From the NCBI GenBank assembly GCA_900319005.1, contig ONMV01000022.1, forward strand, positions 1 through 33,331: DNA of 33,331 nt. The letters run 5' to 3'. Shown in pieces: positions 1 through 32,686 of this stretch (position 1 is its first letter; the number at the start of each line of letters is the position of its first letter). The DNA comes from an uncultured Bacteroidales bacterium (lineage in GTDB: Bacteria; Bacteroidota; Bacteroidia; Bacteroidales; Paludibacteraceae). The notes under the pieces were generated by a model. That model was given only the letters and a program-made list of their open reading frames with translations. It did not search any database and had not been told where the DNA came from. The translations under genes and the position numbers were made by a program.

Positions 1-98
1 AGCAGCATTTTGCTGCATGAGTGTTGCGGGTTCTTACCCGGCTTTGCGAGCGCTCCGGAAACATGCTCTATTCCGGGGCTCCATGTTACTTTTGCCAT
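1..98 (-). CDS. Small unknown protein, N-terminal part only (runs off window start)
   Basis: The minus strand reads from an ATG at 98 for 32 codons to the window edge without a stop, beginning MAKVTWSPGIEHVSGALAKP. I recognise no named domain. The opening resembles two other small proteins nearby (1308-1646 and 3244-3504) in the pattern I-[ED]-x-[VLM]-[SR]-[GK]-x-[LV] around residues 10-17, so all three may be divergent paralogues. From memory, proteins opening in this way occur near smalltalk and amidase genes in Bacteroidales; this is recall, not a search. It would be the last gene of the accessory module seen here. No ribosome-binding site is visible, as is normal for Bacteroidetes. The existence of the gene is likely; its function is unknown. 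Confidence 0.62.
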   Translation of the reverse strand, partial: MAKVTWSPGIEHVSGALAKPGKNPQHSCSKML

Positions 99-5613: not shown

Positions 5614-5653
5614 GAAAAAAAGAGACGGTAACCCGCATGGATTACCGTCTCTT
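5614..5653 (-). terminator. Strong rho-independent terminator of the surface-protein/peptide unit
   Basis: AAGAGACGGTAA (5620-5631) and TTACCGTCTCTT (5642-5653) form a perfect 12-bp stem with a 10-base loop. On the minus strand a run of T follows (A-run at 5614-5619). It lies 37 bases past the stop of the 43-aa peptide gene, which makes that gene the last of its transcript. Confidence 0.9.
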
Positions 5654-5689: not shown

Positions 5690-5821
5690 TTAGATACCGC
5701 TGTCGGGATCGCCGCCAATGGGGGCACCGCTAAAGCCGGGATCGGGGCTTCCGGCAAGAACCATCGATTGCAATGCAATAGACGCTACGTTTACTTCCGG
5801 TTGGTTATAATGCTTTTTCAT
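5690..5821 (-). CDS. 43-aa peptide, MKK-Y--P type, downstream of the giant surface protein
   Basis: A complete short gene (ATG 5821, TAA 5690). It starts MKKHYNQPEVNVASIALQSM, passes through MVLAGS, and ends in a Gly/Pro/Asp-rich tail (PGFSGAPIGGDPDSGI). It begins exactly 34 bases after the stop of the tail-bearing surface protein and ends before a strong terminator, so it is co-transcribed with that gene. A 42-aa gene at 32721 has the same opening (MK[KR]xYxxP), the same S-[MV]-[VL]-L/C-A step near residues 19-23, a GF pair after it, and the same 34-base spacing. The function is unknown. A leader/core organisation as in ribosomal peptide precursors is one reading, but no modifying enzyme or transporter is visible. 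Confidence 0.8.
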   Translation of the reverse strand: MKKHYNQPEVNVASIALQSMVLAGSPDPGFSGAPIGGDPDSGI

Positions 5822-5855
5822 AATAATATTCCTTTCATTTTTCAATTTTCACCTT

Positions 5856-7364
5856 TCACTTTACTACTTGTCCTTGTGCATTGTAGCGCACGTCATTCTT
5901 GATAATAATGAGTTGTCCGTTCACAATGACTTTGGTGCTCTGATTTGCGCTTTGTGCATTCTCTACACCGGTAGCCACGTTCTTACCCTCCACGATGCGT
6001 GCGGGCATGCCGCGGTATTTAGGAGCATTGCCCGGAGTCGAAGACTCTACATTCACATAGAAATATGCACGGAACGGCTTGAGCGGGTTGGGGGTGTTCG
6101 GCCAGAAGAGTTGGTTGTTCTGTCCGAGGAACAGATAACCGCCTTGGAAGTTGAGACCGTTCGGCATCTCGAACGGAGTGAAGGTACCCTTGAAGGTCAC
6201 GCCGTCGAAGGTGACAGCCATATTGTCAAGAAGCGCATTGTTGATGGTTACGTCCTCAAAATGCAGGTCATCCAGTTGCGAAGCCGCGCTGTATTTCACG
6301 AAGTACGGACGACCGGCTACAACAGCATTCACCGGATCGCCGACAGACAGGTTGAGGGTCGTACCTTCTACGCTTGCGCCGGTGAACTCACGGATCTCTA
6401 CGCCGTTGAGCGAGCTGGCAGCAATCTGCGCAGCGTTCATGTCGAACGGCAGGCAGAGGGTGTTGTACATGTTATTCAGTACAGGACGGTCAATAATCAG
6501 TTCGTCAATCGTCTGTCCCTCATAAGTGTCCAAGAAAGCAGTTACTTGGTCTACATTGTTCGGATCACCGATAACAACTGCCGTTGTCGAAGCCGAAGCA
6601 GGATACGTTACCTCGATAAAGCTGTAGTAGTCGTTCTCACCGCAGGTTACCTTACCTTCTGCGTCTTCGATATAATAGGTCACATTGGACTTATAGTTGT
6701 CCACATTTACCGTCATGCCCTCTTTGTACGGATAAGTGAAAATGGTACCTACATTCACTTGTGCCCACTCGGTAGTAGACTGAGGTGCGAACTTACCGGA
6801 AGTAGCATCGATACCAAGTTTGACATCAACGGTCTTGTCGCCGATGGTAGCCTTAGCAACCAACAGACCGGAAGTACCTTCATAGGACGTGGTCGGAGCA
6901 CCGTTGTCCCCACCGAAATACCATTTAACGGTCACATCGGTACTTGCATTAAGCAGGTCAGCCTCGTTAGCCGTGAAGACCGGAGTCAGGACTACGTCAT
7001 TAGCCGGAGTGAAGGACTCGCCGATAGGATAGGTGTTCACACCGTCCGACCAACCGGTCAGGGTGTAACCCTCTTTGTACATCGTCTTGTTCACCGGCAT
7101 GGTGATGTCCTCGCCGATTGTAACGTCCACAGCTGCCGGAACAGTACCATCTGCTTCACCTAAAGCGAATACTACATGGTATTCCGTGATCTTCTCCAAC
7201 TTCATGTACGGCATGTACGCACCGCCATTGATCGTAATGGTCTGGTCCATATCCACCGTGAAGATCGTAGAAACAATGTTGGCTGCCGTATTGTTATGAT
7301 AGCAGTTGCCTTCACCCAAGTTCGAGTTGAACGAAGCCAATTCTGCATTCGTCTCGCTCATCAC
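5856..7364 (-). CDS. C-terminal part of the frameshifted giant surface protein
   Basis: About 500 aa. The frame is open from about 7406 and continues the protein encoded at 7400-12277. The start of this frame (GACQYG ... NCYHNNTAANIVSTIF) completes the second FRTDPY module begun there (compare TCYHQNTATNVVGAIF in the first copy). Next come an InlB/Listeria-Bacteroides type repeat (about residues 62-132, GYTLTGWSDG), a central beta region, an 'NTLCLPF' module (about 303-440) also present in the 929-aa protein at 29897, and the sorting-type tail VNGQLIIIKN-DVRYNAQGQVVK. Without the upstream part it has no signal peptide, so an independent gene is unlikely. The listed start is the first in-frame Met only. 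A 43-aa peptide gene follows after 34 bases. Confidence 0.75.
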   Translation of the reverse strand: MMSETNAELASFNSNLGEGNCYHNNTAANIVSTIFTVDMDQTITINGGAYMPYMKLEKITEYHVVFALGEADGTVPAAVDVTIGEDITMPVNKTMYKEGYTLTGWSDGVNTYPIGESFTPANDVVLTPVFTANEADLLNASTDVTVKWYFGGDNGAPTTSYEGTSGLLVAKATIGDKTVDVKLGIDATSGKFAPQSTTEWAQVNVGTIFTYPYKEGMTVNVDNYKSNVTYYIEDAEGKVTCGENDYYSFIEVTYPASASTTAVVIGDPNNVDQVTAFLDTYEGQTIDELIIDRPVLNNMYNTLCLPFDMNAAQIAASSLNGVEIREFTGASVEGTTLNLSVGDPVNAVVAGRPYFVKYSAASQLDDLHFEDVTINNALLDNMAVTFDGVTFKGTFTPFEMPNGLNFQGGYLFLGQNNQLFWPNTPNPLKPFRAYFYVNVESSTPGNAPKYRGMPARIVEGKNVATGVENAQSANQSTKVIVNGQLIIIKNDVRYNAQGQVVK

Positions 7365-7399: not shown

Positions 7400-10300
7400 T
7401 CAGACGCCAGCCTCTACAGGAACAGTCGCTTCCACGTTCTGATAGCCATGATATTCGTCGTGATAAGAACCTGCGATGACTGTACCCTCCGGTTTTGCAC
7501 CGCTGATCATATCGTACGGATCGGTACGGAAGTTAATCTCAAAGTCTGTAAATGCCGGAACTGCTTCCATCTTCTTGATAGAGAAGAACGGAGTATATTC
7601 AGCACCATAAACCTTGATGATCTGGTCGCTCGGTACATTGAAGATAGCACCTACGACGTTCGTAGCGGTATTCTGGTGATAGCACGTACCGTTGTTTGTC
7701 TCCAAAGTAGCGTAAGTATAGGAATTATCCTCAGTCTTAATGGTAGCATCTTGATTGCTGTAGGAACAAGTACCCATCATCACTTTGTAGTTACCGGCTG
7801 TTACAGGAATCGTGATTACCGGCAGACGATAACCGTGCTTAGCGTCACTCGTATTCATCGAACCTTCCACCTCTACACCTGTCGGCAGCGAACCACCGCC
7901 TACTACGGTATAAGGATCGGTACGGAAGTCAATAGCAAAGTCTGCATCGGTATATACCGGTACAACAGGTGCAGCCGGATGTACAGTCAGATGGAATGCA
8001 CAAGAGTCGTAGCAATAAAGATTGGTAATATCATGTACTACATAGATATCGCACTCACCTGCTTGATGGAACGTAAGGGTACCCAGACCATCCATAGAGA
8101 GTGTATATGCGATAGTAGCCACCGTCTCATCGGTCGAACCCAAACGAACTTGATCCACTCCATTTGCGATATTGGATACAAATGCCATACTGGTTGCCCA
8201 AACTTTCGGGATGGTCACTTCGCCTTCCTGACCAAGTGTCACTTCGAAATTACCCGCCGTTACATCCTTCCAGTACATGCCGCATACACGTGAATAATCG
8301 ATTGACAAGCGGTTGTCATCATAATACCAGAAGAAGGAGTAGTAGCCCTTGACATCTACATTGATAGTCAGATTACCCGTATGACCTTCATCTATGATAT
8401 ACGAATAATTATCGCGTGTGTACGCAGAACCGTTCGCTCTCCACTCGCCGTTCACCTTGACACCAAACTCATAGGTACCCGGCTCAAGGAGCTTTGTCAA
8501 TTTAGCATAACTATGCATTGGCAGCTCAGATACTTCAAACGCCTCGGTATCAGCCCACTCGCCGGAGAAATTACCATTCAGTTGAATGGTCGGTTTGGCA
8601 ATCTTCTCTGCCGATGCAGAAATCACATTTCCAACCGGGTTATAGGTGATCGTGATCTTATAATCACCTAAGCTGGGTATTTCAAATGTAGCAGCATCCT
8701 CGCTTGTAGCGGGATACGCTACACCCCATGCATGGTCTTTGCAAACGCGGTACTGGATAGTAGTAGCACCGGTGAATGAAACGTTCTCTTTCTCCCATTT
8801 ATAGGAACCGTCCTCCTGAAGAACCAGATCATTGTCGGTGATGCTTGGATCCCACGAGTTACTAAAGATCGCTAAGTTATGGCCCACAGCGGTGTACGTA
8901 TGCGGATAGCCGATAGTAAGCGTGTTGGTCGCGTACTCCCATGTGAAGGAATAGTTACCTGTTACATCGGCTTGGAAGTAGTACACGTCTCCAGAACCGC
9001 TGCTAATAACATAACTCGGGTTCTGACGTGTGAATTCATGGTTGTCAGACATCGACACACCATCTACTTTCACGCTGAAGTTATAATAGTAACCAGCCGT
9101 CAGCGCTATATTGCTCAGGGTTGCTGTACCGTCACCGTTATCCGTGAAGGCCTCTGTATCCGCCCAGTCATACGTGCCACCGAAATTAGCATTCAGCTTG
9201 ATTTCCGGAGTAGACGGTGTCGAACCACCGCCGGAGCTTGTATAGAAAGTCTTAATCCCACTATTGGCATTCGAGTAAACAGTACCCAGGTCGTACCACC
9301 CCTCTTCGCTTTCCACGAAATTTCCATTATTGAAATAATGGTAATACATTTTATCATCCCCATATTGCTCAGCTACATGATATATCAGAATCGAGTTGCA
9401 GTTTGTGGGAGCTTCCCATGTTTTTGCGAGCTCGGCGTCTGTTTCCTCAAAGCCCGGCATATCAGCAACCGCAAGGTAAGTCGATTTACCACTCCACGAA
9501 GCAGGAGCTTCAAGTTCGGTTACGTGAAGATTGCTCGGCGGTGCCGGACAATTGTACATCTTATCATGATAATAAGCAATATCAGCTTGCATATCATTGT
9601 AGTACTGTGCTCTGGATTCGCACGGGTAATAGATGATGAGATCGTTGTGACAATTCTCGAATGCATTTCCGCCAACACGCGGAGGAGTGGTAGGCTCAAA
9701 CGTTACCGTAGCCAAGGACTGGCTGCTGATAAATGCACTCGCACTGATACCCTTCACGTTCTCAGGAATAGTAACACTCGTCAAACCGCACCCTGAGAAT
9801 GCATTCATTAATATATATTGCAGCGTGCTCGGAAGAGTGATCTGAGAGAACGTATTGATAAACGCAAATGCATTTTGACCAATACTGATCAAGCCTTCCG
9901 GCAGCACTACCGAGGTAATGTTCTGACCGTACCACGGCATAGAGAGAGGATCATCATAGTTGTCCATAGAGCCGGTACCGATGCCGTCGTACGAAATTGT
10001 GAGCACGCCGTCGTTAACAGCCCATGTCAGACCGTCACCACACGAATTAGCCGGAGTGGAGGTATTCGGGTCGATCGTAAACTTAATCTGCGTTATACCT
10101 CCAAAATTCGATACCAACGATACGAGCGCCGCAGGAGTACCCTCCCATACCGCATTCGTTCCGTCCAGTGTCCATCCGTCGCCGCTGAAAGCAGGCTGTT
10201 CATAGAGGTGCGAGTTCGTAACCTCAATCTTTGTGAACTTACCTAAGCTGGTAGTAAAGACGAAGGGGCCGCCGAAATATGCGCCTTCATAACTGCCGTA

Positions 10301-12277
10301 ACCGCCAATACCGTTATCCACGCCATAAGCCATGAGGGTTATACCCTTCGCTTTAAAGTATCCGCCCTGGTTCCCCATTGACTCCATGTCAGACAAATCC
10401 CAGGTAACAGTAGTTTCGCTCGGTTCCGGTGTCGAACCACCGCTCGGAGCTGTTTCGGAAACAAGACGAACGGACATACCAAAATAGCGAGGATTTGTAC
10501 CGATTCCTAAAGTGCCGTTTCCAACTGCAATGCTTTGGGGATCTTCAGGTTCTCCGGAATATAGTGTTGAGGACCAATAGTTACCCATTTGGTTTACATC
10601 GAGAATTGCAAATTCTTCTCCAAAATTCTGACGAGAACCCGCCGAAGGTAAGAAAACACAACCCATACTCTCCAGAGTCGCCCAACCTGCTGTCGTACAA
10701 TAAGTGGGGTATGATGAGTAGAAACTGGGATTGATACTTCCCCATGTTACACCATCAATGGATTCGCCACCATCGTTAAAGTCATCCGGGAAGAGGATGA
10801 TGCCTTTGATATCCTTTTGTGGAGCTGTACCATCCGTTAAGATCTGTGCGTTCGTATAACGGGGATAGTTTGTATAATTTGCCGAAGAAGAACCCGGATT
10901 ACGTTCTTGGAGGAGATATTGCCATTCATTGATGGTCAGTGTGCGCCAATCGGAACCCTTCTTCGCGCCCCAGTCTTTGAAATCACCACTATAGTCAGCC
11001 TCGTTTATGCTGTTATTAATTCCGAAGTAGTTGTTGTCGGTTGAACTCCATGCAAATAAGTCCACAGGGCCGTTGGAAGAAACAGTGCCTCCACCGTTGA
11101 TAGCGTTGTTAGCAGCGCTATTACCAACATAATCCCATTGGTTTTCTGCAAAGCCCCAAGTCCATGTTGCACCATTATCAGCAGTAGTAGCCTGCAAGTT
11201 AGCCTTCGAGAAATAGACAACTTTGTCGCCTCCTACAGAGAAAGCTCCCGCTAACTTATCTCCATCACCCGAAGGAGTCGGAGTCGGATCTACTGCCGGT
11301 GCCGGTTCACCATGCAAATCAGCAAAACCGGTAGAAGCATCTTCATTGAAAGTGATATAAATGTCATCATTATAAGAATGCGTGTTACCAGTTAAGTAAC
11401 ATCCATAATGACCATTTGCTTCAAAGAAGGCAGCATGCTCCACCGGATTGTTCTCATTGGCGTATGCATAGAGCACACCGTATGCTACCGGCTGGTATGC
11501 TCCGTTTTGCCACTGATAGAGACGATAAACCTCCATTTGTTCAGGAGATTTTCCATATTGGTTAGCAACAGATTCATCAACTATCGATCCATATTCAGTG
11601 CTTGAATTTGAAGGGTTATAATACTCAACGAACTCCAATTTCCACGGACCGGAAGGGTTTCCATTACCAACGTAAGGGTTACCGAAATAAAACAAATTGC
11701 AATACCCTGAATTAGTAGGATAATTCGGGTCACGCCAGCAGTCATAGCAGTTGGCAAAGATACCGCCTGTTGCCGAAGGAGTCGGATCTACCGCCGGTTC
11801 CGAACCGCCACCATTTTCTATTGTAAATTCAATAGAGGTAATATCATCTATATGCCTGGGAGCGTCTCCTGTCAACGTAATCGATGCGGCAGGAGTGCCG
11901 GACCATGTGAATATTCCTCCTTCGAAATTTTCATAATACGGGCTGATCCAGTCTCCATTGGCATTGTTCCATTCTCCAGCACCCGAGTGATAAATATCAA
12001 TTTGGGCAATGTTTCCTACACTGGATGTGAACGTTAAATAACCTCCACCACTTCCTTCGCCATTGCCTATTTCGATAGCACCGCCATAGCAAAATCTAAC
12101 AAACTCCCCAGTGCTTACAGCCGTTACCTCAATGCCGTCACTGGCCTTACTGCCAGAGCCCGACTCAATGTTCATAGCCATACTGGATAATTTGGACTGA
12201 TCCCACGTGATGACTGTTGCCCAGCTCAACCCCACGCTTGTCACGAGGGCGAGAAGAAATGTAAATAGTTTTCTCAT
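7400..12277 (-). CDS. Giant modular secreted/surface protein, N-terminal 1625 aa (BspA repeats, starch-binding-like modules)
   Basis: Signal peptide MRKLFTFLLALVTSVGLSWA. Visible modules, by approximate residue: two related 'TWD' beta domains (21-155, 622-735); a domain rich in Trp/Asn resembling Fibrobacter-type paralogous or DUF1566-like domains (340-610); BspA-type leucine-rich repeats (752-870; ITSVVLPEGLISIGQNAF); and starch-binding-like beta modules (1030-1130, 1135-1325; DGSYKWEKENV, YKITITYNP). Two copies of an FRTDPY module follow (from 1449 and 1582). The frame ends in TGA at 7400 in the middle of the second FRTDPY module; the rest is encoded in another frame (5856-7406). Likely role: cell-surface adhesion or glucan binding beside the amylases. 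It has its own promoter (12510-12540) and a 230-base leader with a terminator-like hairpin. Confidence 0.85.
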   Translation of the reverse strand: MRKLFTFLLALVTSVGLSWATVITWDQSKLSSMAMNIESGSGSKASDGIEVTAVSTGEFVRFCYGGAIEIGNGEGSGGGYLTFTSSVGNIAQIDIYHSGAGEWNNANGDWISPYYENFEGGIFTWSGTPAASITLTGDAPRHIDDITSIEFTIENGGGSEPAVDPTPSATGGIFANCYDCWRDPNYPTNSGYCNLFYFGNPYVGNGNPSGPWKLEFVEYYNPSNSSTEYGSIVDESVANQYGKSPEQMEVYRLYQWQNGAYQPVAYGVLYAYANENNPVEHAAFFEANGHYGCYLTGNTHSYNDDIYITFNEDASTGFADLHGEPAPAVDPTPTPSGDGDKLAGAFSVGGDKVVYFSKANLQATTADNGATWTWGFAENQWDYVGNSAANNAINGGGTVSSNGPVDLFAWSSTDNNYFGINNSINEADYSGDFKDWGAKKGSDWRTLTINEWQYLLQERNPGSSSANYTNYPRYTNAQILTDGTAPQKDIKGIILFPDDFNDGGESIDGVTWGSINPSFYSSYPTYCTTAGWATLESMGCVFLPSAGSRQNFGEEFAILDVNQMGNYWSSTLYSGEPEDPQSIAVGNGTLGIGTNPRYFGMSVRLVSETAPSGGSTPEPSETTVTWDLSDMESMGNQGGYFKAKGITLMAYGVDNGIGGYGSYEGAYFGGPFVFTTSLGKFTKIEVTNSHLYEQPAFSGDGWTLDGTNAVWEGTPAALVSLVSNFGGITQIKFTIDPNTSTPANSCGDGLTWAVNDGVLTISYDGIGTGSMDNYDDPLSMPWYGQNITSVVLPEGLISIGQNAFAFINTFSQITLPSTLQYILMNAFSGCGLTSVTIPENVKGISASAFISSQSLATVTFEPTTPPRVGGNAFENCHNDLIIYYPCESRAQYYNDMQADIAYYHDKMYNCPAPPSNLHVTELEAPASWSGKSTYLAVADMPGFEETDAELAKTWEAPTNCNSILIYHVAEQYGDDKMYYHYFNNGNFVESEEGWYDLGTVYSNANSGIKTFYTSSGGGSTPSTPEIKLNANFGGTYDWADTEAFTDNGDGTATLSNIALTAGYYYNFSVKVDGVSMSDNHEFTRQNPSYVISSGSGDVYYFQADVTGNYSFTWEYATNTLTIGYPHTYTAVGHNLAIFSNSWDPSITDNDLVLQEDGSYKWEKENVSFTGATTIQYRVCKDHAWGVAYPATSEDAATFEIPSLGDYKITITYNPVGNVISASAEKIAKPTIQLNGNFSGEWADTEAFEVSELPMHSYAKLTKLLEPGTYEFGVKVNGEWRANGSAYTRDNYSYIIDEGHTGNLTINVDVKGYYSFFWYYDDNRLSIDYSRVCGMYWKDVTAGNFEVTLGQEGEVTIPKVWATSMAFVSNIANGVDQVRLGSTDETVATIAYTLSMDGLGTLTFHQAGECDIYVVHDITNLYCYDSCAFHLTVHPAAPVVPVYTDADFAIDFRTDPYTVVGGGSLPTGVEVEGSMNTSDAKHGYRLPVITIPVTAGNYKVMMGTCSYSNQDATIKTEDNSYTYATLETNNGTCYHQNTATNVVGAIFNVPSDQIIKVYGAEYTPFFSIKKMEAVPAFTDFEINFRTDPYDMISGAKPEGTVIAGSYHDEYHGYQNVEATVPVEAGV

Positions 12278-29896: not shown

Positions 29897-32686
29897 ATGA
29901 GAAACTTAAAGACATTTGCATTACTGCTCCTGATGGCAGTATGCAGCATGGGAGCAAAAGCAGCCACCGTGAACGATCTTGTGGCAATTGATTACGACTA
30001 CGTATTCATTGCCGATGACATGACCTACAATGGAACAGAGAAACCTGTCGCTAACACGCTTTATGCGGACGGACATATCTTTGCTCCGACTGCTAACACC
30101 GTGGCTACCAACAAAGGAAACAGTACCTTTGCCGGTGGAACGCACCTCAACAGCCTTCGTCTGAAGAATGCACAAGACCGTTTGGCATTCAAGGTAAGCG
30201 GTCCTTGTACTGTCACGTTCTACACCTATTCTGATGCAGCACGCGGAATCTATGTGTCCAAGGTGGACAATGTCACCACCGATGAGGAAGCGTATGCCAA
30301 ACAACCCGTTTCGACTCCGGTGTGGACAGTAGCTTTAGACGAAGCTGGTGTATATTATCTGACTTCTTACAATGCCGATTTCTTCTTTGCCGGTTTTGAG
30401 ATCGTCTTCCCCGATGATCCCGCAGCGGTGACCTTCGGCGTAGCACGCGAGGTGGCTTCCGTCACTTCGACTTCGACCGATGAGTTAGTTACCGGCTATG
30501 CTGTTGCAGAAGATCAGTTGGTGGATCCTTCGGTAGCAGGTATCAGCATAGCGATGAACTATCCAAGCGCAAACGTGCTGACCAATAAAGGTCGCGCCAT
30601 ATATTGGTACGATGGTACAGCAAGCAAAAACTGCTATGTAGATAAAGGCGTCAAGAACTACCGCAACCAAATAGGGGATGATGTCTTCACCGAACTCAAC
30701 GAAGGTATCTATTTCAGTTTTGACATGACGGTAGCAGATGGCTATAAGCTGTCCCTCCAACGTCTCATCTCCGACGTATTGAAAAGTAACAGTAACACGC
30801 ACTACGTAGTGAAAATCTACAATAACGGTTTGTTGCTCCGTACCTTTGATGAAGTGGAGGCAACGGCTACAACCTCTGACATGAAGCGTAGCATCGGCAT
30901 CGCCAATGATCCTTCCTTGCAGAACCTGACCGGTACCGTTACCGTCAAGCTGTTCTTCTGGAATACCGCCAGCGCACAGTACGTAGCTATCAAAGACCTG
31001 CAGGTGAAAGCACTCGTTTCCCATATCGCAGACGGTACGCAGACATTTGGTCTGACCCGTACGGTGGATACCGAAGTGACTACTTCGTCCGATTCACAAG
31101 CTTCCGGCTATGCCGTTTCCGATGACGCGTTGGTTGACCCTTCTGCAGAGGGGATCACGATTACCAAGAACTTTGGTTCGAAGAATTCATTGACCAACAA
31201 AGGTCGCAAACTCTATTGGTATAATGACGGTAAGCTGGAATGCTATGCTGACAAAGGCACTCCTAACTACCGCAACTATATCTATGATGCAGGAGAATAC
31301 GTGAATGCTTTGGATGAGCGTTGCTACTATGGCTTCGACATGACCATTGCATTAGGCAAACAAGTGTCCATTAAAATGCTCACCTCAGATGTCTTCTCTG
31401 ATGCTTTGGATGCTTCCTACCAAGTGAAGATTTACAATAATGGTGAGGTCATCAAGACCTTAGATATAGTTGGTCCGAATGCCGGAGGAACCGCAGATAT
31501 GAAGCGTGTCATAAATCTCTCCGAAGAGGCTGCGCTGCAAGGTCTGAAAGGAACCGTTTCTGTCAAACTATTTTGGTGGAGCGCTACCAACGGCAAGTAC
31601 CTCGATGTCAAAGATCTGAATGTAGCGGCTTTGGTAGAAGACGCACAGGGCGAAGGTGTCAAAGGACTCGTCTTTACGGACTTTGAGCCTGCAAAGAATC
31701 CGACCTTCACCGAAGGAGAAGTAACTGCTTCTTTCTCCAATGCCAATAACAATACCATCTCCCCTGCCTCTGAGAACCGTGGTGTCCGCATGCAGTCGCA
31801 ATACGGCATCACCAGCCTCAAAGTGGAGGTTCCTGCGGATTCCTATATCAGCGAAGTAGTCTTCGTTTGGAATAAGAAAGGCAACCTGAACGGAGGTGCG
31901 AATTTCCTTGATCTGCTCATTACCAACAGTAGCGACGTACAAGTAAGCACCTTACAAGAATCCGAGCAAAAGAATGAGACCACATGGTCTTGCGGCGAAG
32001 TACGCGAATCGGAACTTACGTTTGCACAGCAGACTCCGGGTGATTTCTATTGTCATTCGATCCGTGTTACCTATCTCCCGAAACCGACGGTTCAGCAGTA
32101 TGTTCGTACGCATACCCACATGAACCTCAACACCCTCTGCTACCCCTATCAGATTGATTCATACACCGGTGCTACTTTCTACACCATGCTCTACAAAGCA
32201 GGCGGAACGGCTGCTGAACCGGCTGAGATCTATCTCCAAGAGCACGTGGGCGCACTCGAAGCAGGCAAACCGTATTTCTATGTACCCGAAGGTACAGAAC
32301 TCGTTTGCAACTACTCCGGTGAGTATACCGCAGCAGGTAACGATGGTAATGGTACTTATGGCGTTTATGCCGATATGACGGATGTAACTTCGGGTATGTA
32401 CGTGACCTACAACAACCTCTTCACCAAAGCCGGTTCCAACGTCAAACTCCGTGAGTACCGCGCGTATGTGGATATGAGCGAAGTAAGCGTTGATCAGCAA
32501 GGTCCATCTTATGTCCCCGGACGCCGCGTGCTCCGAGTAAGCAATGCTAACGCACCGCAAAGTCCGACCGGCATCGAAAACACATCCGCCAAGGTTGGCG
32601 GATCTGAGAAGATCCTTGAAAACGGCGTCCTCTACATCATCAAGAACGGTGCTAAATACAACGCGCAAGGACAAATGGTAAAATGA
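29897..32686 (+). CDS. Large secreted protein with duplicated domain and sorting-type tail, 929 aa
   Basis: Signal peptide MRNLKTFALLLLMAVCSMGA. Two homologous beta domains (about 179-375 and 383-585; both with TFG[VL]xR, LTNKGR, YWY and YRN) match a third copy in the preceding esterase (AFGLTADVDMTD). The 'NTLCYPY' module near 745-885 also occurs in the giant protein's end (NTLCLPF). The tail is LENGVLYIIKN-GAKYNAQGQMVK. No catalytic motif is recognised, so binding or surface architecture is more likely than catalysis. It begins 19 bases after the esterase, in one operon, and is followed after exactly 34 bases by the 42-aa peptide gene. Its function may relate to pectin, by position only. 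Confidence 0.85.
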   Translation: MRNLKTFALLLLMAVCSMGAKAATVNDLVAIDYDYVFIADDMTYNGTEKPVANTLYADGHIFAPTANTVATNKGNSTFAGGTHLNSLRLKNAQDRLAFKVSGPCTVTFYTYSDAARGIYVSKVDNVTTDEEAYAKQPVSTPVWTVALDEAGVYYLTSYNADFFFAGFEIVFPDDPAAVTFGVAREVASVTSTSTDELVTGYAVAEDQLVDPSVAGISIAMNYPSANVLTNKGRAIYWYDGTASKNCYVDKGVKNYRNQIGDDVFTELNEGIYFSFDMTVADGYKLSLQRLISDVLKSNSNTHYVVKIYNNGLLLRTFDEVEATATTSDMKRSIGIANDPSLQNLTGTVTVKLFFWNTASAQYVAIKDLQVKALVSHIADGTQTFGLTRTVDTEVTTSSDSQASGYAVSDDALVDPSAEGITITKNFGSKNSLTNKGRKLYWYNDGKLECYADKGTPNYRNYIYDAGEYVNALDERCYYGFDMTIALGKQVSIKMLTSDVFSDALDASYQVKIYNNGEVIKTLDIVGPNAGGTADMKRVINLSEEAALQGLKGTVSVKLFWWSATNGKYLDVKDLNVAALVEDAQGEGVKGLVFTDFEPAKNPTFTEGEVTASFSNANNNTISPASENRGVRMQSQYGITSLKVEVPADSYISEVVFVWNKKGNLNGGANFLDLLITNSSDVQVSTLQESEQKNETTWSCGEVRESELTFAQQTPGDFYCHSIRVTYLPKPTVQQYVRTHTHMNLNTLCYPYQIDSYTGATFYTMLYKAGGTAAEPAEIYLQEHVGALEAGKPYFYVPEGTELVCNYSGEYTAAGNDGNGTYGVYADMTDVTSGMYVTYNNLFTKAGSNVKLREYRAYVDMSEVSVDQQGPSYVPGRRVLRVSNANAPQSPTGIENTSAKVGGSEKILENGVLYIIKNGAKYNAQGQMVK

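Follow-up and report, generated by a model that had tools for sequence, protein, structure and literature searches.

The window, by which we mean the whole 33,331-nt stretch of DNA analysed here, carries on its reverse strand a gene for a 43-aa peptide, P0001 (5690..5821), with its ATG at 5821 and its stop codon at 5690-5692. The peptide (MKKHYNQPEVNVASIALQSMVLAGSPDPGFSGAPIGGDPDSGI) begins MKKHYNQPEV in an MKK-x-Y-x-x-P leader, has LAGS at residues 22-25 and runs out in a variable, Gly/Pro/Asp-rich end; its reading frame is backed by a match to the family profile and by the family dN/dS, both given below. An A-rich spacer of 34 nt (5822..5855, reverse strand) separates its start from the stop of the tail-bearing cargo gene upstream, and an intrinsic terminator with a 15-pair stem and a T-run follows it (5620..5653, reverse strand; z = -4.2, with 0 of 200 shuffles equally stable). 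The interval 5690-5855 that a preliminary description of this DNA had singled out is the P0001 ORF plus this spacer, and its picture of a 43-aa gene that begins 34 nt after a tail-bearing gene and ends in a strong terminator agrees with the coordinates and with the stem. A promoter-like site in the spacer (5852-5823) is no more than chance would give (2 sites counted against 2.5 expected), and spacing and terminator together suggest that cargo and peptide are transcribed together. Neither P0001 nor the second peptide of the window, P0003, has a Pfam or NCBIfam match at E up to 0.1, and by eye peptides of this kind have no signal peptide.

The cargo frame next to P0001, P0002 (5856..7364, reverse strand), is the 3' part of a tail-bearing gene. 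Its C-terminal tail (NGQLIIIKNDVRYNAQGQVVK; 5859..5945, reverse strand) matches the tail profile at E 1.0e-15, being itself one of the 14 tails in that profile. The pre-tail module (YNTLCLPF...FRAYF...AP..R) and tail together (5859..6563, reverse strand) are predicted to be all-beta, with a pLDDT of 84; the module fell below every Pfam cut-off, and solved structures gave no useful match. Since P0002 has no signal peptide of its own by eye, and since a 1625-aa LRR-bearing frame (7400-12277, reverse strand) ends in a different frame 36 nt short of it, the two are probably one longer cargo gene starting at 12277 and broken by a frameshift, either real or introduced in assembly.

The second peptide gene, P0003 (32721..32849, forward strand), encodes 42 aa (MKRIYISPATETMPMNPTSVLCAS..., of the form MKRIYISP...LCAS...) and is homologous to P0001. 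It was absent from the four matches found with P0001 alone, and belonged to the four-peptide profile that recovers it. It starts 34 nt after the stop, at 32686, of a 929-aa cargo (29897..32686, forward strand) with a signal-peptide-like start, the module motif and a tail (32597..32683, forward strand; tail profile E 1.0e-15). The recurrence at 32.7 kb on the other strand reported in the preliminary description is thus real, with a homologous peptide behind a tail gene, but the peptide is 42 rather than 43 aa long. The equal 34-nt gaps, offered there as evidence, are a coincidence, since within the family the peptide starts anywhere between -4 and 260 nt from the long upstream frame, which is usually but not invariably a tail gene. 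No peptide accompanies the tail-bearing amylase-like and pectinesterase/GDSL-like genes of the window.

In the window's own genome (G000; 2.18 Mb in 41 contigs), the four-peptide profile found 19 places at E up to 10, and a 35-peptide profile, 15 of whose members come from this genome, gave 22 matches at E up to 0.05. Nineteen of these 22 peptides start no more than 102 nt behind a same-strand tail-bearing gene, two stand behind a tail gene with small unrelated genes intervening, and one (C25) precedes a lipoprotein-like gene. The preliminary description had proposed a functional pairing with tail-bearing proteins and had suggested looking for homologues within 100 nt downstream of their genes; that position proves systematic. 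The same pairing is seen from the side of the tails, which a profile (A2) of 14 tails, every one standing before a peptide, located at 79 places at E below 1e-3; as A2 was built from peptide-associated tails only, peptide-bearing genes rank first in its results. A YxxP peptide lies beside 22 of the 78 places examined: 19 within 300 nt, one a variant missed by the motif and two reached across small genes, three further motif matches near tail genes having been removed from the count as unrelated ORFs. Motif ORFs (K/R..Y/F/W..P, 35-75 aa) start within 300 nt downstream of 19 of the 78 tail genes; the antisense strand gave 1 of 78, and reversed sequence 0 of 78. Literature searches found no account of this arrangement.

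The small genes that stand between cargo and peptide at L003:1696-2244 (reverse strand), L107 and L291:799-1285 (reverse strand) look as if they had been repeatedly inserted; we take them to be an S23-like ORF with four helices, present in two genomes, and a pair resembling DUF4160/DUF2442. Simple intergenic repeats, ACTAGTC... and AATTTGATATTTG..., occur in the spacers round some peptide genes (L003 ~1640-2360, L002 ~1460-1500).

The cargos that carry a peptide are not the unrelated tail-bearing proteins that they had been thought to be. Ahead of the tail, a motif of the [FRAYF / HKAYV / NRAYI] type is present in 17 of 21 peptide-bearing tail cargos examined in G000 and in 1 of 42 that have no peptide (p = 1e-10), and by eye that one match falls outside the module. 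This comparison covers 63 of the 78 tail genes, namely 66 minus three shorter than 100 aa, one of which (C33) is a misread peptide-bearing gene. The module with the motif often opens with YNTLCLPF; the remaining four peptide-bearing cargos have a second module type, which the peptide-lacking L282 also seems to have.

A C-terminal tail at 79 places in 2.18 Mb marks a very large family of exported proteins. Like the T9SS type A sorting domain (PF18962), the tail is C-terminal on large exported surface proteins, and all six genomes searched for the T9SS translocon SprA contain it; Prevotella-type tails, moreover, end in GLYIVNGKKVIVK-like sequences. Unlike that domain, the tail of the window seems by eye to have its strand order swapped, and no tail in either of two genomes searched scored above the Pfam cut-off for PF18962, so that in calling these proteins T9SS-type we rely on position and machinery. 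The strand orders are NGxLxIxxNG-YNxxGxxVK in the window's genome and YNLxGQRV-GLYIVNGKKV in the Prevotella type.

The peptides extend well beyond this genome. A first, small profile run on 61 genomes (G000 and 60 relatives) had matches in 29 at E up to 0.1, including 27 of 37 genomes of the window's genus, with none in the other 10 of that genus. Most of the named relatives with peptides are MAGs from rumen or deer, with the labels Paludibacteraceae, Bacteroidales, Prevotellaceae, Prevotella or Bacteroidaceae, and in all eight of their ten loci that have enough upstream sequence a tail gene ends 8-55 nt before the peptide. In G147, which belongs to a different family of the order, a tail gene precedes 15 of 17 peptides; an eighteenth, seen only with another profile, does not. 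The tails of G147 have another form (NLAGQRV...GLYIVNGKKVIVK) and its peptides a conserved Trp near the end, so the pairing outlasts the divergence of both partners. At one locus of this genome (L176, on C28) two diverged peptide genes lie in tandem behind a single cargo.

Purifying selection acts on these reading frames, as it does on translated ORFs that are kept. Over 16 independent pairs, picked by a DNA identity of at least 60%, dN/dS is 0.26 (0.23 for the first 26 residues and 0.28 for the rest), and differences at codon positions 1, 2 and 3 number 170, 152 and 318; the selection that the preliminary description named as a check is therefore present at the level of the family. The closest pair, P0001 and its relative in G030, differs by 7.5 nonsynonymous and 1.5 synonymous changes, which are too few to judge by and give no support alone.

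The peptides are not exclusive to tail genes. In other families, peptide ORFs lie 16-78 nt before lipoprotein-like genes at 10 of 23 loci inspected, and one of four scanned lipoprotein-like products downstream of such ORFs matches the fimbrillin-like family PF13149. Four genomes of the window's own genus contain six ORFs of 360-374 aa (L051-L056) in which the leader is joined in frame to a lipoprotein-like product, ahead of the lipobox, and the stretch after the leader in these fusions (CASGGIKAQISGY...GGFTQ) is similar to the free-standing peptide of G393 (CTSGGPSVTMSGY...TGGFNQ). The peptides thus occur behind tail genes, before lipoprotein genes, fused to them or, in some families, beside RiPP-type enzymes.

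From 176 candidates, 117 peptides were collected by a Y/F/W..P match together with a profile E below 0.05. Both Y and P of YxxP are present in 117 of 117, entry having required Y, F or W and not Y itself. A hydrophobic residue at Y+10 follows, and the C-terminus varies among peptides, which fits the leader plus variable tail proposed for P0001 at the outset. A Ser lies at Y+18..20 in 98 of the 117, against 23% expected from composition, mostly at Y+19/20 rather than Y+18, and is missing from these positions in 19. This shape recalls the precursors of linear polyphosphorylated peptides (LPP) described from Bacillota (Popov et al., Nat Commun, May 2026; PMC13381572). As the available part of that paper describes it, an LPP gene set comprises a SpI peptidase, an RRE, an HprK-like kinase, an NTP transferase and an MsbA-like transporter, and its precursors combine a YxxP leader with ends that vary. 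In that system the RRE hands the leader over to the peptidase, S3 of the core is the residue that the kinase phosphorylates, and the positions are Y-16, P-13 and S3 = Y+18 (PMC13381572).

The YxxP leader motif suggests binding by an RRE, and exactly one PqqD-type protein is present in each of the six peptide-bearing genomes tested. A peptidase of ~150 aa adjoins this RRE in G000, G030, G281, G147 and G393 and shares an operon with it in G091. Residues N35 and D73 of the RRE are invariant in all six and align with N33 and D70 of LppB and with G42 and Q79 of PbaB1, the tag offset of the PDB numbering being allowed for. In LppB these residues contact YxxP, holding its proline kink and its tyrosine, and, according to the portion of the paper available, they are conserved in many other RREs and are not LPP-specific (PMC13381572). 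The RRE scores better against the actinobacterial lasso RRE TfuB1 (E 9.4e-6) than against LppB (E 0.098). The peptidase has an invariant Ser-His-Asp set (S30, H73 and D88, six of six); its sequence weakly matches SEC11 signal peptidases (SEC11A, E 0.006), two of three scanned gave a below-cut-off match to TIGR02228, and by structure its fold is S24/S26-like (best E 2e-3, probability 1.00).

An HprK-like kinase was found in nine of nine genomes tested, three of which are sources of the profile and six of which belong to the window's genus; in G000 it lies at C30:136416-137282. A match of the kinase to TIGR04352 is below cut-off. In G419, which belongs to the same genus as the window, the genes for peptidase, RRE and kinase are adjacent. 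In G000, G030 and G281 neither the kinase nor the NTP-transferase and exporter lie beside the pair of RRE and peptidase, the kinase of G281 neighbouring NTP_transf_5, and an exporter was not identified in G000. ABC exporter and NTP_transf_5 genes are found in the clusters of G091 and G055; the former holds the complete enzyme set, with no clustered precursor seen there. The exporter of G147 is within the cluster, with NTP_transf_5 ~1.7 kb away.

Across a sample of 393 genomes of the order, the peptidase occurs in 13 of the 15 genomes in which profile A4 detects a peptide and in 39 of the 378 others (p = 8e-11); leaving out five genomes that were sources of the peptidase profile gives 8 of 10 against 39 of 378 (p = 1e-6), both p values coming from Fisher tests that ignore relatedness. 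The two peptide genomes with no peptidase match are G125, with one weak peptide, and G329, with 6 peptides and a completeness of 89%; the 39 are peptidase genomes with no A4-detected peptide. At the best 30 peptidase loci an RRE lies within 3.4 kb in 22 and a kinase in 25, or in 18 and 22 of 25 once profile sources are removed.

Peptides and enzymes are also physically linked. The operon of G055, a genome of another family, has on one strand peptide, kinase, peptidase, RRE, NTP_transf_5 and ABC transporter, with a GH97 gene before it and dnaN beyond. Among ten genomes with a single peptide (a match that sits inside a long frame in G213 and G264), the peptide is less than 10 kb from the peptidase in five: ~1 kb in G055 and G423, 2 kb in G385, 3.8 kb in G294 and 9 kb in G214. 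The 15-kb region of G294 contains peptide and peptidase, and RRE and kinase were not found in it. Twenty peptidase regions gave a peptide in six; five of these were known beforehand, and the other 15 regions yielded one weak case (G266, E 0.06).

We consider it likely that the 43-aa ORF encodes a RiPP-like precursor served in trans by RRE, peptidase and kinase; binding, cleavage, phosphorylation, export and an action on or with the cargo we infer from motifs, conserved residues and analogy to LPP. A leader of ~22 residues (MKKxYxxP...LxAS) would be bound through its YxxP by the single PqqD-type RRE (C23 in G000), as motif and conserved contacts suggest. The signal-peptidase-like Ser-His-Asp peptidase next to the RRE would then cut just before the [A/C]-x-S step, the HprK-like kinase (C30 in G000) would phosphorylate the conserved Ser, both steps by analogy to LPP, and the variable core would leave through an ABC transporter. 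In P0001 the proposed leader is residues 1-22 (5756..5821, reverse strand), with Y5 and P8 as candidate RRE-binding residues, and the proposed core is residues 23-43 (AGSPDPGF...; 5693..5755, reverse strand), with S25 as candidate phospho-acceptor; this boundary was set by placing S25 on core residue S3 as given in the available LPP text (PMC13381572) and by the Ser positions in the 117 peptides. A single common enzyme set may thus act on about two dozen precursors. Because most of these follow surface proteins of the T9SS type that carry one particular pre-tail module, a cargo would be made together with its own peptide. Among the roles that the preliminary description had listed (secretion accessory, anchor, signal or peptide precursor), that of peptide precursor has gained support, and nothing was found for an anchor or a secretion accessory.

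A more specific version, which we put forward tentatively and regard as possible though doubtful, assigns one precursor to each surface adhesin: each FRAYF-module cargo would be co-expressed with its own phosphorylated peptide, which would be exported and would act on the cargo or become attached to it at the surface. If this is true, the leader-lipoprotein fusions of the same genus would be surface proteins modified directly by way of the same leader.

Other readings of the pairing have to be weighed against the precursor. The tight position behind cargos of one module (17 of 21 against 1 of 42), its retention in two families of the order and the presence of SprA in six of six genomes would all fit an unmodified accessory of the T9SS-type cargo, a chaperone or a folding or secretion helper in the cytoplasm or at the membrane. 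Such a helper would, however, be an odd thing to find before or fused to lipoprotein genes and inside an enzyme operon, where related peptides also occur, and it would not lead one to expect co-occurrence with RRE, peptidase and kinase; the peptides also have no signal peptide by eye, and we judge this reading quite unlikely. A regulatory or cis-acting ORF, such as a translation-coupled leader, an arrest peptide or a 3' stabiliser of the mRNA, is highly improbable: the gene is indeed the last ORF before a terminator, and in other species short ORFs of this kind lie just upstream of lipoprotein genes, but there is nothing downstream in the window to regulate, and neither amino acids conserved at fixed positions nor linkage to enzymes would be expected of such an element.

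It is also conceivable, if unlikely, that the peptide hitch-hikes, with the 3' end of the cargo gene (module, tail and peptide ORF) spreading by recombination among paralogues and the peptide having no role tied to the cargo. The many paralogues, and the way in which peptide and module go together, would fit such spreading, and the idea is compatible with the precursor reading. A dN/dS of 0.26 speaks against it, as does the persistence of the pairing where module and tail differ (the second module type, the Prevotella-type tails), and the small intervening genes have never permanently parted cargo and peptide.

On the precursor reading, the 40-60-aa ORFs of gut and rumen Bacteroidales, a large class, would acquire an identity that can be tested; none of those scanned reaches the cut-off of a Pfam or NCBIfam family. 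A RiPP class known first from Bacillota would then extend to the surface-protein operons of Gram-negative bacteria, and precursors dispersed in this way would escape genome mining that is based on clusters.

The peptide system most likely works like an LPP- or lasso-type RRE system. With paeninodin-type and actinobacterial lasso peptides it shares a [Y/W]xxP leader and a discrete PqqD-type RRE (PDB 6jx3 and 9x90 were matched), and paeninodin clusters, as the part of the LPP paper at hand states, contain a kinase and an NTP-transferase (PMC13381572). Unlike in lasso systems, no macrolactam cyclase was seen: neither an Asn-synthetase-like cyclase nor a B2 leader peptidase was among 20 proteins scanned from the cassette regions, the G055 operon included. 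The window's peptides match no lasso family, and one of 19 relatives gave a weak match (E 0.017). Judged by the genes seen, with no cyclase and no B2 peptidase among those scanned, this is no lasso peptide system.

In the part of their description available (PMC13381572), LPP belong to Bacillota, with one to three clustered precursors in capsule loci, whereas here we have Bacteroidales, about two dozen precursors dispersed in the window's genome, and T9SS-type cargos or lipoproteins; the word stem 'bacteroid' does not occur in the text of the LPP paper (PMC13381572). Of the full LPP leader consensus, YxxPxVLxHQxIxFETxxS, the Bacteroidales leaders lack the HQ-x-I-x-F-E-T part, with neither HQ nor FET in the peptides. 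We have not filed the peptides as LPP, since the remainder of the consensus is absent, a lasso RRE outscores LppB in comparison with the RRE found here, and the product is as yet hypothetical. The two have in common short precursors with an N-terminal YxxP leader and a variable C-terminus, a discrete RRE, a signal-peptidase-I-like Ser-His-Asp peptidase, an HprK-like kinase and a Ser near the LPP phosphorylation site. They also share, in the clusters of relatives such as G055 and G091, an NTP-transferase and an MsbA-like exporter, and scanning of cluster proteins revealed no cyclase. In the portion of their paper available, the discoverers of LPP call the role of these peptides unknown (PMC13381572), and a constant pairing with a single type of surface protein would offer a handle on that role.
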